DNA of 39,151 nt from Desulfurococcales archaeon. Its GTDB lineage: Archaea; Thermoproteota; Thermoprotei_A; Sulfolobales; Acidilobaceae. The notes under the pieces were generated by a model, which was not told where the DNA came from, made no database searches, and worked only from the letters and a program-made list of their open reading frames with translations. Positions 4,895-33,275 of this stretch are shown here, in pieces; the stretch's first letter is position 1, and each line of letters begins with the position of its first letter. The translations under genes were made by a program, and so were the position numbers. The stretch lies in the NCBI GenBank assembly GCA_015521205.1, contig WAOQ01000039.1, positions 1 to 39,151 on the forward strand, given 5' to 3'.

Positions 4895-5989
4895 TTAGCT
4901 GCTAGGTGGGAGTAGGGACTGAGGTACTGTTAATCCCTTGTCCTGGTAGAACTGCACTGCACCAGGGTGCAGAGGTATTGAGACTCCCTCGAGGGCTGTC
5001 TGTAGGCTTATGTCCGCTGCTCTTGCGTGTGCCTGTCTTATTTCGTCTAGGTGGCTGAACATTGCATCGAGGAACGTGTATACGACGTTGTTGGGCACGT
5101 TAGCGCTGGCTACTAGTAGAGCCTTCACGGTCAGGGTCTTCACATCGTTGGGCTGGAAGTCGTAGCTGTTGGCTGGTATGACTAGCTGGACGTATACGTT
5201 GCCTAGACCTGCACTGACGAGTTGTTGGTATGCATCGTCGGGTACCTCGACTAAGACTAGGTCTACCTGGGCTGCCATCTGCTGTACAGTAGGTGTTGGT
5301 ACACCAGCCACGTTAAAGAACACCTGCACGTTGCCGGCTTTGATATCATCTCCAGCGTCCTTGTATCCCTTCTCGACTTTTGTTATCTGATCCCATAGTG
5401 GCTGCCCGTTGACAGTTAGAGCGCTGAGTATTGTTTCTGCTGTAGCGTATAATCCGCTACCAACGTTTCCTACGGCAACGCTCTTGCCGGGTAGATCCCA
5501 GATGGTCTGGACGCCAGCGTCAGCTCTGGCTATGATCTGTATGGGCTCTGGGTAGAGGGCTGCTAGTGCTCTCAGGTTGGTTACGGGAGAACCGCCCTGG
5601 TTGGGGTCGAAGTCCTCAAGTTTCAATCCATTGTAAGCGAAATAGGCTACGTCGCTCTGCATTATGGCGAAGTCGGTGTCTCCGGATTTGATAGCGTTTG
5701 CGTTGGCCACGCTTGCACCGCTCTCCTGCGAGTTTACTGTCAAGTTGGTGTAAGCTGTGACTACTTGTGCGATCTTAGTTCCTACTGGGTAGTAGACACC
5801 GCCGGAGCTGCCGGTGTACATTGTGAATGTACCGGTCGGTCCGCCGCCACCGGCTCCACCGCCGGCTCCGCCGCCTGTCTGGTTAGTGGTCTCACCGCCT
5901 CCACCCATCATTAGGGCGGCTGCGACGATGACTATTATGATGACAATCGCTATGCCAATCCAAGCTGTTTGGCTTAAACCTTTCTTCAT
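4895..5989 (-). CDS. TAXI-family TRAP transporter solute-binding protein
   Basis: A 364-residue extracytoplasmic receptor. After MKKG comes a hydrophobic anchor (about residues 9-28), a linker of Gly-rich repeats (GGGAGGGAGGGG, residues 39-50), then a binding domain with TAXI features: TMYTGSSGGVYYPVGT near its start and SGASVANANAIKSGDTDFAIMQSD. TAXI proteins deliver small acids such as glutamate or dicarboxylates to TRAP permeases; the ligand here is unknown. Unlike most bacterial receptors, which are released by signal cleavage, this one appears tethered by its N-terminal helix, as expected outside an archaeal membrane. The ATG at 5989 follows GGAGGTG at 6000-6006. It lies downstream of the fused permease in the same direction but has its own AT-rich promoter candidate at about 6060-6072. 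Confidence 0.88.
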   Translation of the reverse strand: MKKGLSQTAWIGIAIVIIIVIVAAALMMGGGGETTNQTGGGAGGGAGGGGPTGTFTMYTGSSGGVYYPVGTKIAQVVTAYTNLTVNSQESGASVANANAIKSGDTDFAIMQSDVAYFAYNGLKLEDFDPNQGGSPVTNLRALAALYPEPIQIIARADAGVQTIWDLPGKSVAVGNVGSGLYATAETILSALTVNGQPLWDQITKVEKGYKDAGDDIKAGNVQVFFNVAGVPTPTVQQMAAQVDLVLVEVPDDAYQQLVSAGLGNVYVQLVIPANSYDFQPNDVKTLTVKALLVASANVPNNVVYTFLDAMFSHLDEIRQAHARAADISLQTALEGVSIPLHPGAVQFYQDKGLTVPQSLLPPSS

Positions 5990-6002
5990 GTGGAATACGC
6001 AC

Positions 6003-6023
6003 CTCCCCCAAATATTTGGGGAG
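6003..6023 (-). promoter_or_regulatory. Palindrome/hairpin overlapping the ribosome binding site of the TAXI receptor gene
   Basis: CCCCAAATATTTGGGG (6006-6021) is a perfect 16-base palindrome. Read on the minus strand it extends to CTCCCCAA pairing with TTGGGG(G)AG, with loop ATAT and one bulged G, so the GGAGGTG ribosome binding site is partly paired. The inner CCAAATATTTGG recurs upstream of the RIO2 gene at 29123-29134, so it could equally be a DNA operator. Confidence 0.45.
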
Positions 6024-6248
6024 ATTTTACTGCTAGTTGTATTAGAGTATGGATTTTGGAAGTATTAAAAGGTTTTAGAGACGTCTGGTTGTCATTACTC
6101 CTTACTAATGGTACTGGATGAGTTAAAGGATCGTGTTGTTCGGTATTACTTTATCTTCCCTTATTGTAATCTGAGCTTTAGTTGTAGTGATAGACAGGTT
6201 GATATTGGATGTTTCCACAAAGGAGTTTATGAAATAAAATATGTGGGA

Positions 6249-8567
6249 TCAGGAGGGCTCGACACCAGAAAGTGATTCTTTAAGCCCTGTAAGCCCCTTT
6301 CTAGCCTTGATTATTTGTGATATTTGGGCATAGATAAACAGTACTGCCGTCAACGCTATCAGATAGTCATTCATTGATACTGCGGCGATCGATACGACGA
6401 TCAAGGTGTACCTTAGTATCCGTGATTTTATGTGCCCGAATAGCCATCCGGTGAACCCGCTCGAAGCCGCGTGAATTATCATCACTGCAGCCAACGTGAC
6501 TTTTAGCAATTGAATATAATCAGCAGTTCTCCAAACTACTATCGATGTTACCAGTAGTTGTGGGCTTGCCACGAAGATGAATGGTAGGATATACTTTGCG
6601 AAGCCGTACTTTGTCGCGTTTATAGCTGTCTTCCAGAAGTCCGCTCCCGCCAAGACGGCGCCCACGAAGGCTGCCAATGCGACTGGAGGCGTTATGTCGG
6701 CAAGGATTCCATAGTAGAATACAAACATGTGACTTGCGAATTCCGCTGTGCTAGTTCTAGCGTTTAATGATAAACCTAGAGCTTCCGCATACGTATTCAA
6801 CTGGTAACCGTTGGGATAGTGGAGCCATAGGGTTGCGGCCGTGACTATTGCTGGGGCTAGTACGGTGCTTGTGATGATATAGTTTGCGGTTGTTGGAACT
6901 CCCATACCTAGTATTATTGAGAATATTGCAGTGAGTAATAGTAGCAGGTAGATGTATCCGCCGCTTATGTCGATGAGTACTCCTGCTAGTTTCTGTGGCA
7001 GCTGTGTGAATATGATCATGGATTGAACAATGCTTGCCGATGCTGCGGCCAGGAATACGGGTACGCTGTTCCTCAGAGTTAGTTCAATGCTATTTATGGT
7101 GGCTTTGGCTAGCTGTTTGGCTCCACGTATTCTTAGTCCTGGATAGACTGTATAGAGGAACATAACTACGCCCATCACTAGCAAAGATGACCCGAATGTA
7201 AGTCCTATGGCCATGAAGAGAGCCGTCGAGCCCAATACGATGAGCGTCACTATTATCTTGTGTATCCTGGGTACAGCGTCTGCTGCCAGCCAAGCAACAT
7301 ATATGGCGCTTCCAAGAGATGCTATCACGGCATGTTGCGGGCTTAGCTTTAGAAGTGCTACAATAATTATGAATATGGGGAGTGTCAGATAGAGTTTCTT
7401 GAGGAGCCTTGCCCTATCCGGTAGCTCCTCTTTTGTAAGAGGCCTCATGTGAAGTCTTTTCGCTTCCTTATCGACGAAGACGTAGATGCTGTAGAAGTAG
7501 AGTACTGCTGGTAGGGCGGCTGCTATCATTATGTCCCTATAGGGTCTGCCGAGGAATTCTGCCATTATGAAAGCTGCGGCTCCCATTATGGGGGGCATGA
7601 GCTGTCCTCCCGTGCTTGCTACTGGTTCTACTGCGCCGGCTATCTCTGGTGGGAAGCCTGCCCTCTTCATTGTGGGTATGGAGAAAGTTCCTGTGGTTAA
7701 GACGTTAGCTACACTGCTACCTGATATCATTCCCATGAGCATGCTTGATACTACTGCTACTTTTGCCGGCCCTCCGGGTCTTGTTCCGAAGAGTGACAGT
7801 ATGAGTTCTGTTATGTAGCGTCCTATGCCCATTTGTTCTAGGATGGAGCTGAAGAAGAGGAATGCGAAGACGTAGATTATCATTACTTCGAGTGGTACTC
7901 CTAGTACTCCCGTGTTTTGCCCTATCATCTGGTTGAAAATGAAGCGGAGGCCTTCTTCGAGGCCTTTCCCTCTTGCATAGGCTACGTCTATGGCGTATCG
8001 GAATCCATAGCCGAGGAATACTACTACGATTAGGGGTAGGATTATCCCGAAGGCTCTTCTCGTGGCTTCTAGTACAGCTATCAGTATGCCGGGTATGAAT
8101 ATTAGTTCGATTATTGTTAGCTGGGTTATACTGCCTTCTACAGTATGTGTTTTCAAATAAAGGTAGACTATGTATAGGGGCATCGCGGCTAGAACGCTTG
8201 CAATTATCCAGTCATACCATGGTATCTCTTCGGTGGGTTTACCCCTACGCATAGGATAGAGTATTATTGCTGAGAATATTATTAGCGAAAGGATTATACC
8301 TTTCCTGGGAAGCGTCTGGAAAAATATATCCGGTCTGGTCAAAATGTAAGCTGTCTCTCTGGGAACACCTAGGTGTGTTAACGCATTGATTATAGCTAGG
8401 TTGAGTCCTAGGACATAGAATAATTCGAGTATCATGAATAGAAGGGCGACTACGAATATAACTTTCCTTGCTTTACCCGTCTTGGCGCGTTCAACCATAA
8501 TCTTCTTTAGCATCTCAAGTTTTTCTTTTTCTATAGGCATTTCTTCTAGGGATACCGACTCTGACAT
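6249..8567 (-). CDS. TRAP transporter fused permease (4TM/12TM, TAXI-associated)
   Basis: A 772-residue membrane protein combining the small DctQ-like and large DctM-like TRAP subunits, as in TAXI systems. Residues 1-35 are cytosolic and charged. About four helices follow (residues 38-175), then the large subunit with its hallmark segments: GMISGSSVANVLTTGTF and PPEIAGAVEPVASTGGQLMP near residues 275-320, and GMGVPTTANYIITSTVLAP near 555-573, regions that bind substrate and coupling ion in TRAP transporters. It works with the binding protein encoded downstream at 4895-5989 to import an organic acid using an ion gradient. The ATG at 8567 follows GGGTGAT, which itself is part of a predicted hairpin in a roughly 140-base structured leader. 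Confidence 0.93.
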   Translation of the reverse strand: MSESVSLEEMPIEKEKLEMLKKIMVERAKTGKARKVIFVVALLFMILELFYVLGLNLAIINALTHLGVPRETAYILTRPDIFFQTLPRKGIILSLIIFSAIILYPMRRGKPTEEIPWYDWIIASVLAAMPLYIVYLYLKTHTVEGSITQLTIIELIFIPGILIAVLEATRRAFGIILPLIVVVFLGYGFRYAIDVAYARGKGLEEGLRFIFNQMIGQNTGVLGVPLEVMIIYVFAFLFFSSILEQMGIGRYITELILSLFGTRPGGPAKVAVVSSMLMGMISGSSVANVLTTGTFSIPTMKRAGFPPEIAGAVEPVASTGGQLMPPIMGAAAFIMAEFLGRPYRDIMIAAALPAVLYFYSIYVFVDKEAKRLHMRPLTKEELPDRARLLKKLYLTLPIFIIIVALLKLSPQHAVIASLGSAIYVAWLAADAVPRIHKIIVTLIVLGSTALFMAIGLTFGSSLLVMGVVMFLYTVYPGLRIRGAKQLAKATINSIELTLRNSVPVFLAAASASIVQSMIIFTQLPQKLAGVLIDISGGYIYLLLLLTAIFSIILGMGVPTTANYIITSTVLAPAIVTAATLWLHYPNGYQLNTYAEALGLSLNARTSTAEFASHMFVFYYGILADITPPVALAAFVGAVLAGADFWKTAINATKYGFAKYILPFIFVASPQLLVTSIVVWRTADYIQLLKVTLAAVMIIHAASSGFTGWLFGHIKSRILRYTLIVVSIAAVSMNDYLIALTAVLFIYAQISQIIKARKGLTGLKESLSGVEPS

Positions 8568-8924
8568 CCCAGCATCACCCTTCTCGGACTTCTCGAACGC
8601 GATGCTGACAGGCGTATTATCGCGGAGGGAAGCCCTTGCCGGGCTAGGAGCCCGTATCGCACGTGTGGATGCATATCGGGCTCCTAGCCCTGAACTGGTT
8701 TTACATTGAATATCATCTTGCTGGCTTATTATAAAAAGTATATTGTAAAGAAAATAATGTGTCCGAGGGGTGGGTGGGGATACCTTTGTTTTAACCTTCT
8801 AGACGTTATATTGGGATAGGAAATTTTATATACAAATATTGAAAAGTGGTTGATTCACTCGTACAATACCGTCTATAACATAATATAAGGGGCGGATACC
8901 CCCCTATCAGAGGGTGACCCCAAG
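8568..8924. promoter_or_regulatory. Divergent intergenic region with the structured TRAP leader and two promoters
   Basis: This 357-base region holds no gene. For the TRAP permease (minus strand), a TATA-like TTTATAAT lies at 8728-8735, so transcription probably starts near 8707, giving a leader of about 140 bases. The leader has a perfect 14-bp stem (8641-8654 with 8677-8690, loop 22 bases, with three more pairs TAT/ATA inside) and a 7-bp stem CAGCATC 8570-8576 with GATGCTG 8601-8607. The second stem overlaps the ribosome binding site GGGTGAT and ends two bases from the start codon. For the aminomutase (plus strand), TATA-like boxes lie at about 8823-8834 and 8876-8889; a weak CCCT/AGGG hairpin at 8902-8914 touches its ribosome binding site. 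Confidence 0.6.
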
Positions 8925-10841
8925 ATGTCTAAACTAGTGGATGTACCCCCAACACCCTTTAAAGAGCTATCGGAAAGACTTTTCAAGCTCAAAGTTCCAG
9001 TCCAAGTCCTTAAGCCCGCTGTCGATGTGGACCTTGACGAGGTTCTCTGGAGCGAAGACAGGAACGTCTATGAGATTTTACGGACTAGTGCAACATTAGA
9101 GGAGGCTAGGAGAAGGCTTTTCCAGTATCTGGCAGAAGTGGAATGGGAATACATGACTGGTGTACGCGTTGTACACCCGCTCATCGAGGCACAGGCCAGA
9201 GAGGCCTTAAAGGTATTCAGGAACGTTATTAGTCCCCGGAACGAGGAGTTCACCGGTTTTAGCGCCCTAAGCTATCTCTGGAGGATGGCTCGGGGGGATG
9301 ATAAAGCAAAAGAAGAGGTAGACGAGGGTTTCATACTAGAGTTCAAACACTTGTTAAAGGCCATTAATGGTAGACCAGACATTTACCCGGCCAAATACGC
9401 TGAGGGTCTTCCATATGTAGATTTTAGGAGGATCCACGGCAGACAGGCCGGTATAGCCAGGTCAAACTACCTTGACATGTTAGCTCAGAGGATGTGGGAG
9501 TATCTTAACAAGTATCCTACTGGTCTAGATCCAGAGGTTATCGAGCTGAGGAAGAAAAATAGGGAGCGGATTCTCGAATATTTCGGAGGTAGCGAGGACG
9601 ATTGGTGGGATTATAAATGGCATTTCAAGCATGTTCTGAAGGGTCGTAAGGGACTGTTAGCCCTTAAGGACCTAACCGATCTTCCCGAGGAGTATGAGAG
9701 GAGTATAGAGCTAGCCATACAGTATAAGGTACCCTTCGGTATCACCCCATATTATTTGCACCTCTTCGATCTAGACTCGTCTTGGAGTCCTGTGGACGCG
9801 CAACCCAGAAGCCAGGTGTTGCCGCCGCTGCATACTGTTACAGAGATCATCGCGCATAGGGATGAGAGGGAATACTACTTTGACTTTATGGGCGAGCACG
9901 ACACTAGTCCCCACCCACTTATAACCCGCAGATACCCCATGGTTGCCATCATCAAGGCCTCCAACACTTGTCCACAAATCTGTGTATACTGCCAGAGGAA
10001 CTGGGAGATAGAGACGGCACTCGACCCGAGGGGTGTGCCTTCCAAGAAGAACATAGATGATGCCATCGACTGGTTCGCCAATCACCCTGAGATTAAAGAC
10101 GTCCTTATCACCGGTGGCGACCCGTTCATCCTGAACGATGACTTCCTGGAGCACATTGTTAGGAGACTCGCAGAGCTTGACCATGTGATGCATATAAGGA
10201 TAGGTACTCGAGTACCGGTAACGGTGCCTATGAGGATCACAGATGAGATAGCTGAAGCTCTAGGAAGCTATGTTGAGCCTGGTAAGAGGAATGTTACTAT
10301 CGTGACACATGTAGAGTCTGCCAGCGAAGTCACGCCCGAGATGGGGAAGGCAGTAGAGAGGATTAAGAAGAATAAGATGTACGTCTATAACCAGCAGGTC
10401 TTCACCTTCTGGGTTAGTAGGAGGTTCGAAACCGTTAAGCTTAGGATCGCTCTCAAGAAGGTGGGCATTGACCCGTACTATAGCTTCTACACTAAGGGCA
10501 AGTGGGAGACTAAGGACTACGTTATACCTGTAGCACGTATACTTCAAGAGAGGAAAGAGGAAGCAAGGCTTCTACCTGGAACCTTCAGAACAGACGAGCC
10601 CGTGTTCAACGTGCCCAGACTTGGAAAGAACCATGTCAGGGCTTGGCAAGACCACGAGCTCATAATGATACGGCCCGATGGTAGGAGAGTTTATCTCTGG
10701 CACCCGTGGGAGAAGAACATACAGATCGTTGATCCCTATGTCTATACTGACATCGTCTCGATAAGGATGTACCTGGATAAGCTGAAAGAAGTCTACGGCG
10801 AGGATCCCGAGGACTACAAGAGCATCTGGTACTACTACTAA
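8925..10841 (+). CDS. Lysine 2,3-aminomutase-family radical SAM protein (long form)
   Basis: A 638-residue member of the KamA family. The radical SAM CX3CX2C motif is at Cys349, Cys353 and Cys356, followed by the family signature TGGDPFIL and IRIGTRVPVTVP. Lys568 in PRLGKN aligns by position with the PLP-binding Lys of the aminomutase PGGGGK motif, although the glycines are mostly replaced. Canonical lysine 2,3-aminomutase is about 415 residues; here there are about 300 residues before the radical SAM core. The reaction is probably a PLP- and SAM-dependent 1,2-amino shift on a lysine-like substrate, but substrate is uncertain. Beta-lysine derivatives are compatible solutes in methanogens; no acetyltransferase partner is visible here. 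ATG start with GAGGGTGA seven bases upstream. It is monocistronic, with a T-run after the stop. Confidence 0.82.
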   Translation: MSKLVDVPPTPFKELSERLFKLKVPVQVLKPAVDVDLDEVLWSEDRNVYEILRTSATLEEARRRLFQYLAEVEWEYMTGVRVVHPLIEAQAREALKVFRNVISPRNEEFTGFSALSYLWRMARGDDKAKEEVDEGFILEFKHLLKAINGRPDIYPAKYAEGLPYVDFRRIHGRQAGIARSNYLDMLAQRMWEYLNKYPTGLDPEVIELRKKNRERILEYFGGSEDDWWDYKWHFKHVLKGRKGLLALKDLTDLPEEYERSIELAIQYKVPFGITPYYLHLFDLDSSWSPVDAQPRSQVLPPLHTVTEIIAHRDEREYYFDFMGEHDTSPHPLITRRYPMVAIIKASNTCPQICVYCQRNWEIETALDPRGVPSKKNIDDAIDWFANHPEIKDVLITGGDPFILNDDFLEHIVRRLAELDHVMHIRIGTRVPVTVPMRITDEIAEALGSYVEPGKRNVTIVTHVESASEVTPEMGKAVERIKKNKMYVYNQQVFTFWVSRRFETVKLRIALKKVGIDPYYSFYTKGKWETKDYVIPVARILQERKEEARLLPGTFRTDEPVFNVPRLGKNHVRAWQDHELIMIRPDGRRVYLWHPWEKNIQIVDPYVYTDIVSIRMYLDKLKEVYGEDPEDYKSIWYYY

Positions 10842-29388: not shown

Positions 29389-29736
29389 ATGAACGAGAAG
29401 AAAGAGACCACAGAGTGGACACCGGGTAAGGAGGGTATCTATGTTAAGGACGGCGTGTTACACGTAGCTGGCTTCGAGTTTATACAGCGAGTAGCACAGG
29501 CTCTATCCGGCGAGACGAGGCTACGGATATTAAAAATGATTGGAGAGACGGAAATGGATGTCGGACAGCTCTCAGATAAGCTGAAGCACAGCAAGGCCAA
29601 CATAAGCTCACAGATTAGAAAACTGGAGGAGGCCAAACTCGTCGAGTCTACCTATAGGCCTGGCAAGAAGGGCATCAAGAAAGTGATACGGAGAAATGTG
29701 AAAGAGATCAGGATCTACCTAGACCTTGAAAGCTAA
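29389..29736 (+). CDS. ArsR-type winged-helix transcription regulator
   Basis: A 115-residue protein with a single winged helix-turn-helix domain (residues about 28-105): LSGETRLRILKMIGE, then the recognition helix region MDVGQLSDKLKHSKANISSQI and RKLEEAKLVES. This is the archaeal ArsR-like pattern. No Cys residue is present, so it does not sense arsenite or metals through thiols. The N-terminal 27 residues are a short extension (GIYVKDGVLHVAG). The target is unknown; autoregulation is possible. The ATG is preceded by GGATAGGTGAA. Its stop is separated by one base from the convergent CTP synthase stop. Confidence 0.85.
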   Translation: MNEKKETTEWTPGKEGIYVKDGVLHVAGFEFIQRVAQALSGETRLRILKMIGETEMDVGQLSDKLKHSKANISSQIRKLEEAKLVESTYRPGKKGIKKVIRRNVKEIRIYLDLES

Positions 29737-32951: not shown

Positions 32952-33275
32952 CTAGGAGGGCATGGTTAGTTTTGCGAGGATCTCGGCAATATATTCTAAT
33001 GCTCGTGTATATGCTTCTCTCCCGATTTTTGTGGGTTTATAGTACCCACCCTCCTTCTCGAGCAACCCTTCTCTCTCCATCCTATAGAGGACGGTGTATA
33101 AGGTGACAGGGGATACCTTGAATCCGAAGCGTGTCGCTATCCTTTTCTTAATGTCATAGCCATACGTGGGACCTTCTTCTACGAGCACCGCTATCACATA
33201 TATCCATAGGTTCTCAATAGTTAGTTTTCTCTTTAGTCTCTGCAAGGCTTTAGTGTCTGTTCCATCCACTTCCAT
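32952..33275 (-). CDS. PadR-type winged-helix regulator
   Basis: A 107-residue PadR family repressor. The domain runs through residues 18-100: LVEEGPTYGYDIKKRIATRFGFKVSPVTLYTVLYRMEREGLLE, the family's helix-turn-helix with the SPVTLYTVL recognition helix, then the wing EGGYYKPTKIGREA and a C-terminal dimerisation helix. It lies upstream of and in the same direction as the MATE exporter, with 94 bases between, so it is probably that exporter's regulator responding to its substrate. It is divergent from the inositol-phosphate synthase gene, sharing a single AT-rich promoter stretch. Confidence 0.87.
   Translation of the reverse strand: MEVDGTDTKALQRLKRKLTIENLWIYVIAVLVEEGPTYGYDIKKRIATRFGFKVSPVTLYTVLYRMEREGLLEKEGGYYKPTKIGREAYTRALEYIAEILAKLTMPS

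Follow-up and report, generated by a model that had tools for sequence, protein, structure and literature searches.

Gene organization of the TRAP transporter locus

The window, meaning the whole stretch of 39,151 nucleotides analyzed here, comes from the genome of a crenarchaeon in the family Acidilobaceae. It carries on its minus strand the gene for a fused TRAP transporter permease of 772 amino acids (6249–8567; DctM match, TIGR02123), followed downstream on the same strand by the gene for a TAXI-family solute-binding protein (4895–5989; NMT1_3 match, TIGR02122). These matches bear out both identifications, TRAP permease and TAXI binding protein, made in a preliminary description of this DNA. 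A KamA-family radical SAM aminomutase-like gene (8925–10841, plus strand) diverges from the permease gene, with 357 bases between the two starts. It scored above the cut-off of TIGR00238 and below the cut-offs of the equivalogs for both glutamate and lysine 2,3-aminomutase, the best of which was glutamate 2,3-aminomutase (213 bits vs. a cut-off of 650).

The ATG at 8567 is a good start for the permease, with the Shine-Dalgarno (SD) sequence GGTGAT, read directly from the sequence, 6 nt before it (8574–8579, minus strand). A coding N-terminal extension was considered and rejected. Upstream of the ATG, the same frame stays open for 231 nt without any ATG, GTG or TTG, and alignments to the orthologues compared mostly begin at about residue 10–20.

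We learned a promoter motif (AACCGTTTTATA-like) from 181 intergenic upstream regions of the same genome and took the median score of the best sites as reference. The candidate TATA box of the permease gene (TTTATAAT, 8728–8735, minus strand, centered at 8731) scored below this median (5.1 vs. 5.65) and would place the start of transcription near 8703–8708. Transcription from about 8707 is plausible and would give a 140-nt 5′ leader (8568–8707, minus strand), the 5′ end of which follows from this candidate site. Sites at 8752, 8841, and 8883 had promoter scores similar to that at 8731. From a weaker match centered at 8701 (4.8), the start would fall inside the hairpin described below.

An exceptional 14-bp hairpin in the proposed leader

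The leader contains a stem of 14 bp formed by a 5′ arm (GGGCTAGGAGCCCG, 8677–8690, minus strand) and a 3′ arm (CGGGCTCCTAGCCC, 8641–8654, minus strand). The perfect pairing and coordinates claimed for this stem proved correct on the minus strand. In the predicted folds the arms enclose a 22-nt loop (8655–8676, minus strand), in which a weak inner helix of 5 bp, two of them G-U pairs, joins 8669–8673 with 8658–8662. This is the longest perfect hairpin (loop of 3–60) in 324,018 bases of the window's own genome, where the only two runners-up of at least 11 bp have 12 and 11 bp. Such a stem is expected by chance about 0.08 times in 324 kb and 2 × 10⁻⁵ times in a 140-nt leader. Furthermore, no stem of at least 12 bp was found in 295,465 bases of the relatives' loci. 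The 14-bp stem is beyond chance and exceptional.

The leader and start region together fold with −66.5 kcal/mol vs. −50.2 ± 4.1 kcal/mol for shuffled sequences (z = −4.0). At 80°C, the leader ranks first in stability among 175 SD-bearing leaders once the one with an intron-containing tRNA is removed. In that removed case, the tRNA lies directly upstream of a gene start (L129, 13755–13860) and is found by Rfam and missed by ARAGORN. The nearest-neighbor model gives the 14-bp stem a pairing probability of at least 0.95 up to 90°C, with fold energies that are extrapolated from 37°C and indicative only. The hairpin would be a constitutively folded stem even at 80–90°C. Because of this stability, it would not act as a switch. 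Its likely role would be to shield the 5′ region of the mRNA or to serve as a landing site for a protein.

Two other explanations of the stem were rejected. It is followed on the gene's strand by GGCAAGGGC, which has no U-tract, and the terminator scan lists no intrinsic terminator at this place on that strand. Nor is it a repeat or mobile element, as it is present in one copy only and is found in none of 39 relatives and in no viral contigs. We also noted a possible upstream open reading frame of 43 codons (8544–8673), read by eye from the translation, with its ATG in the hairpin loop and AGGAG six bases before. It overlaps the start of the TRAP gene out of frame. No evidence supporting this reading frame was found.

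Each arm of the stem is itself a palindrome (GGGCT-AGG-AGCCC in the 5′ arm and GGGCT-CCT-AGCCC in the 3′ arm). Dimeric archaeal regulators have palindromic operators, and two short palindromes near a promoter resemble them. The two 13-bp near-palindromes (GGGCT-N3-AGCCC) just downstream of the promoter could be paired DNA operators to which a dimeric repressor binds, with the RNA stem arising as a by-product of two identical, oppositely oriented sites. The probability that a random 14-mer contains such a 5 + 5 dyad is about 0.013, or 0.04 if it is GC-rich, and the dyads lie at about +24 and +61 relative to the inferred start, positions suited to a roadblock. However, their centers are 37 bp apart (∼3.5 helical turns), a spacing that puts the sites on opposite faces of the DNA. 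In contrast to the palindromic operators of dimeric regulators, the motif lies at no second promoter in the 55% of the genome covered and adjoins no recognized regulator gene. Its one other occurrence in this sequence is inside a subtilase coding sequence, and the one-mismatch copies checked form no promoter-linked set. The pair also has no copy in 39 relatives. No regulator gene was recognized within 15 kb, the nearest being an ArsR-like gene at 29.4 kb of the window and a PadR-like one at 33 kb. Operator function is unlikely on this evidence; given the 55% genome coverage, a regulon sharing the motif may exist. The ArsR-like (29389–29736) and PadR-like (32952–33275) genes are the only regulators recognized among the scanned genes of the window and lie more than 20 kb from the dyad.

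A stem over the ribosome binding site

A second, 7-bp stem (CAGCATC, 8607–8601, with GATGCTG, 8576–8570) had been described over the ribosome binding site (RBS). Both its pairing and its placement were confirmed, the inner end overlapping GGGTGAT (8580–8574) and the outer end being separated by 2 nt from the ATG (8567). With one G-U pair, the stem extends to nine pairs between a 5′ arm (CAGCATCGC, 8599–8607, minus strand), of which the first seven bases are perfect, and a 3′ arm that overlaps the SD (GTGATGCTG, 8570–8578, minus strand). Its loop holds a direct repeat, CGAGAAG-TC-CGAGAAG (8580–8597), just before the SD.

Perfect stems of at least 7 bp cover the SD in 4 of the 175 SD-bearing leaders of the genome sample (∼2%), and 0.04 are expected per leader by chance. 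The SD is predicted to be 22% unpaired at 80°C, which is among the lowest 7% of the 175 leaders, yet the RBS-proximal 96 nt without the 14-bp hairpin are no more stable than shuffled sequences (z = −0.11). The excess stability of the leader therefore comes from the 14-bp hairpin alone. The RBS stem is near background and mildly unusual, which makes it weak evidence.

The nearest-neighbor model gives the RBS stem a probability of 0.87–0.92 at 70–85°C (0.92 at 80°C), and the SD is 27–39% unpaired at 70–90°C in the temperature-series folds. At 60°C and below, the model favors a competing small hairpin across the start codon (8549–8570, minus strand) in which GGGAT (8570–8566) pairs with ATCCC (8553–8549). 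Both competing folds leave the RBS hidden, and the predicted structures show no ON/OFF pair. The 14-bp stem is predicted to form independently of both folds and does not compete with the RBS. A weak hairpin over the SD would modestly lower basal translation initiation.

One way to read these temperature profiles is as an RNA thermometer whose RBS stem melts near the growth temperature. The modeled probability of the stem indeed drops between 80°C (0.92) and 100°C (0.37), a range in which such organisms may grow. However, melting between 80 and 100°C is common to any short stem, the energy parameters are extrapolated, the RBS region has no excess structure (z = −0.11), and a transporter would be an unusual target. 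We regard a thermometer as extremely unlikely.

The leader had also been interpreted as a translation-controlling leader or riboswitch. The part of this proposal that concerns a structured leader is plausible, and the predicted occlusion of the SD persists at 70–90°C. A strong overall fold, combined with an upstream stem, a stem that occludes the SD, and a transporter gene, suits a ligand-sensing riboswitch controlling translation of the transporter. However, the computed folds contain no two exclusive conformations that would free and hide the RBS, both predicted RBS folds being OFF states with which the 14-bp stem does not compete. No Rfam family matched the leader at the gathering or relaxed threshold, the best relaxed hit being an animal lncRNA model at 14 bits, and membership in a known RNA family was rejected. 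The searches of Rfam, the order, and the class yielded neither a conserved aptamer nor a match to a known family, and orthologous leaders lack the structure. The absence of a homologue in the genomes searched and of an ON fold leaves translational control by a riboswitch very unlikely. The step from a structured leader to one that controls translation is not supported by these results, and nothing in them points to sensing of the imported acid.

Comparison with related genomes

A DNA search with the leader in 213 other genomes of the order returned short chance matches only. A covariance model built from this single leader had no match in 35 orthologue loci or in 228 other genomes of the class. 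Its best other match in the window's own genome (17 bits; L136, 4144–4246) is located where a helicase-like coding sequence begins, and we judged it a chance match. The searched genomes contained no homologous leaders in which covariation could be scored.

TRAP orthologues are encoded in 27 of the 48 genomes of the family, the window's own included, and the nearest is 57% identical at the protein level. The family search found no second genome of the window's own genus (g1). In the nearest genus (g12), a TATA-like site ∼38 bases ahead of the start chosen for the gene points to a short TRAP leader. No hairpin like that of the window was predicted in the g12 leaders or in the other Acidilobaceae TRAP leaders examined. 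Hence, conservation of either stem in relatives, which the preliminary description had named as a test, was not found by the DNA, covariance-model, or orthologue-leader searches. The hairpin may be young or genus-specific and for this reason absent at such distance. As it stands, the hairpin is real, rare, and isolated, without comparative support.

A perfect stem that is conserved nowhere and occurs as one copy in one genome is also what a neutral or recent palindrome, such as one arising from a single template-switch replication event, would look like. The 7-bp RBS stem would then be a chance pairing, consistent with the z-score of the RBS part (−0.11) and with the 2% of leaders that have 7-bp SD stems, and neither element would have a function. 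However, neutrality requires neither the position of the 14-bp stem exactly in the gap between the candidate promoter and the SD-bearing start nor the internal symmetry of its arms. We consider a functionless palindrome somewhat doubtful.

A possible lineage-specific structured leader

We tentatively favor the view that the TRAP permease mRNA has a structured, lineage-specific 5′ leader in which the 14-bp hairpin is constitutively folded, a view that falls short of being probable. In its favor are the uniqueness of the stem in 324 kb, the z-score of −4.0, and the rank of the leader as the most stable at 80°C. The modeled structures are consistent with it, as they predict an SD that is mostly paired at 70–90°C and a 14-bp stem that persists to 90°C, and a fitting 140-nt leader would result from the moderate TATA-like site at 8731. 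Against it are the lack of any relative with the hairpin, the unremarkable z-score of the RBS-proximal part, the equal SD occlusion seen in about 7% of leaders, and the weaker promoter match at 8701, from which transcription would start within the hairpin. The stems are present in the DNA; that the leader is transcribed, that it folds inside the cell, and that it influences expression we infer from the sequence. The 14-bp hairpin is a rare singleton. If it has a role, this may lie in the RNA or in the DNA.

Known archaeal leaders offer partial parallels. In the autoregulatory leader bound by L7Ae, a stem-loop can likewise hide the RBS, but the RNA is unstructured until L7Ae binds its kink-turn (PMC6298567). 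The RBS stem of the window, in contrast, is a continuous helix of Watson-Crick and G-U pairs with no bulge or kink-turn by eye, and the 14-bp stem is predicted to fold unaided. Like the fluoride (crcB) and pre-Q1 riboswitches of Thermococcales (PMC4247193), the leader would be a structured RNA upstream of a hyperthermophile gene with strong in silico support. However, those riboswitches are conserved families, whereas the window leader has no Rfam match or homologue in the class. Thermococcus kodakarensis has 245 long 5′-UTRs, of which 20 belong to transporter genes (PMC4247193), and the window leader would resemble these in being a leader of 50–300 nt on a hyperthermophile transporter gene. 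Extensive structure stabilized by G:C pairs was argued against for the long leaders of T. kodakarensis (PMC4247193); the GC-rich 14-bp stem sets the window leader apart from them. The same 2014 survey of a hyperthermophile found only very limited evidence for regulatory archaeal 5′-UTRs (PMC4247193). Translation-controlling archaeal leaders are thinly documented, and the hairpin, if functional, is a compact test case.

Association with the KamA-family gene

Of the 48 genomes of the family, 7 have a KamA homologue. These are the window's own genome, three of the four from g12, that of g7, and two others. The g12 and g7 genomes that carry KamA are those with the closest TRAP orthologues. In Thermococcus sp. 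JdFR-02 (L059, 1590–7169), too, a TAXI-TRAP pair has a KamA homologue as its neighbor. A functional link between the KamA-family gene and the TAXI-TRAP pair (4895–10841) is possible. Furthermore, one characterized TAXI protein binds glutamate (PMC11574862). This protein and the KamA association hint at an amino-acid substrate for the TRAP importer, a hint that has no bearing on RNA sensing. We also considered a genus-specific cis-regulatory RNA, in which the heat-stable hairpin and the SD-occluding stem would together control a TAXI-TRAP amino-acid importer divergent from an amino-acid 2,3-aminomutase gene. Such an RNA would have arisen too recently, or be too restricted in distribution, to show up in other genera. 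Such a combination is quite improbable.

In the leader of the KamA-family gene (8892–8924), the SD lies among GC-rich tracts that are self-complementary (ggggcggatacccccctatcagagggtgacccc). We rejected a structured leader for this gene, as its fold at 80°C is weak and the orthologous leaders share no fold. Among the TRAP permease orthologues, those of two genomes of genus g14 (L013 and L154) were each reported with one in-frame TAA within the match.
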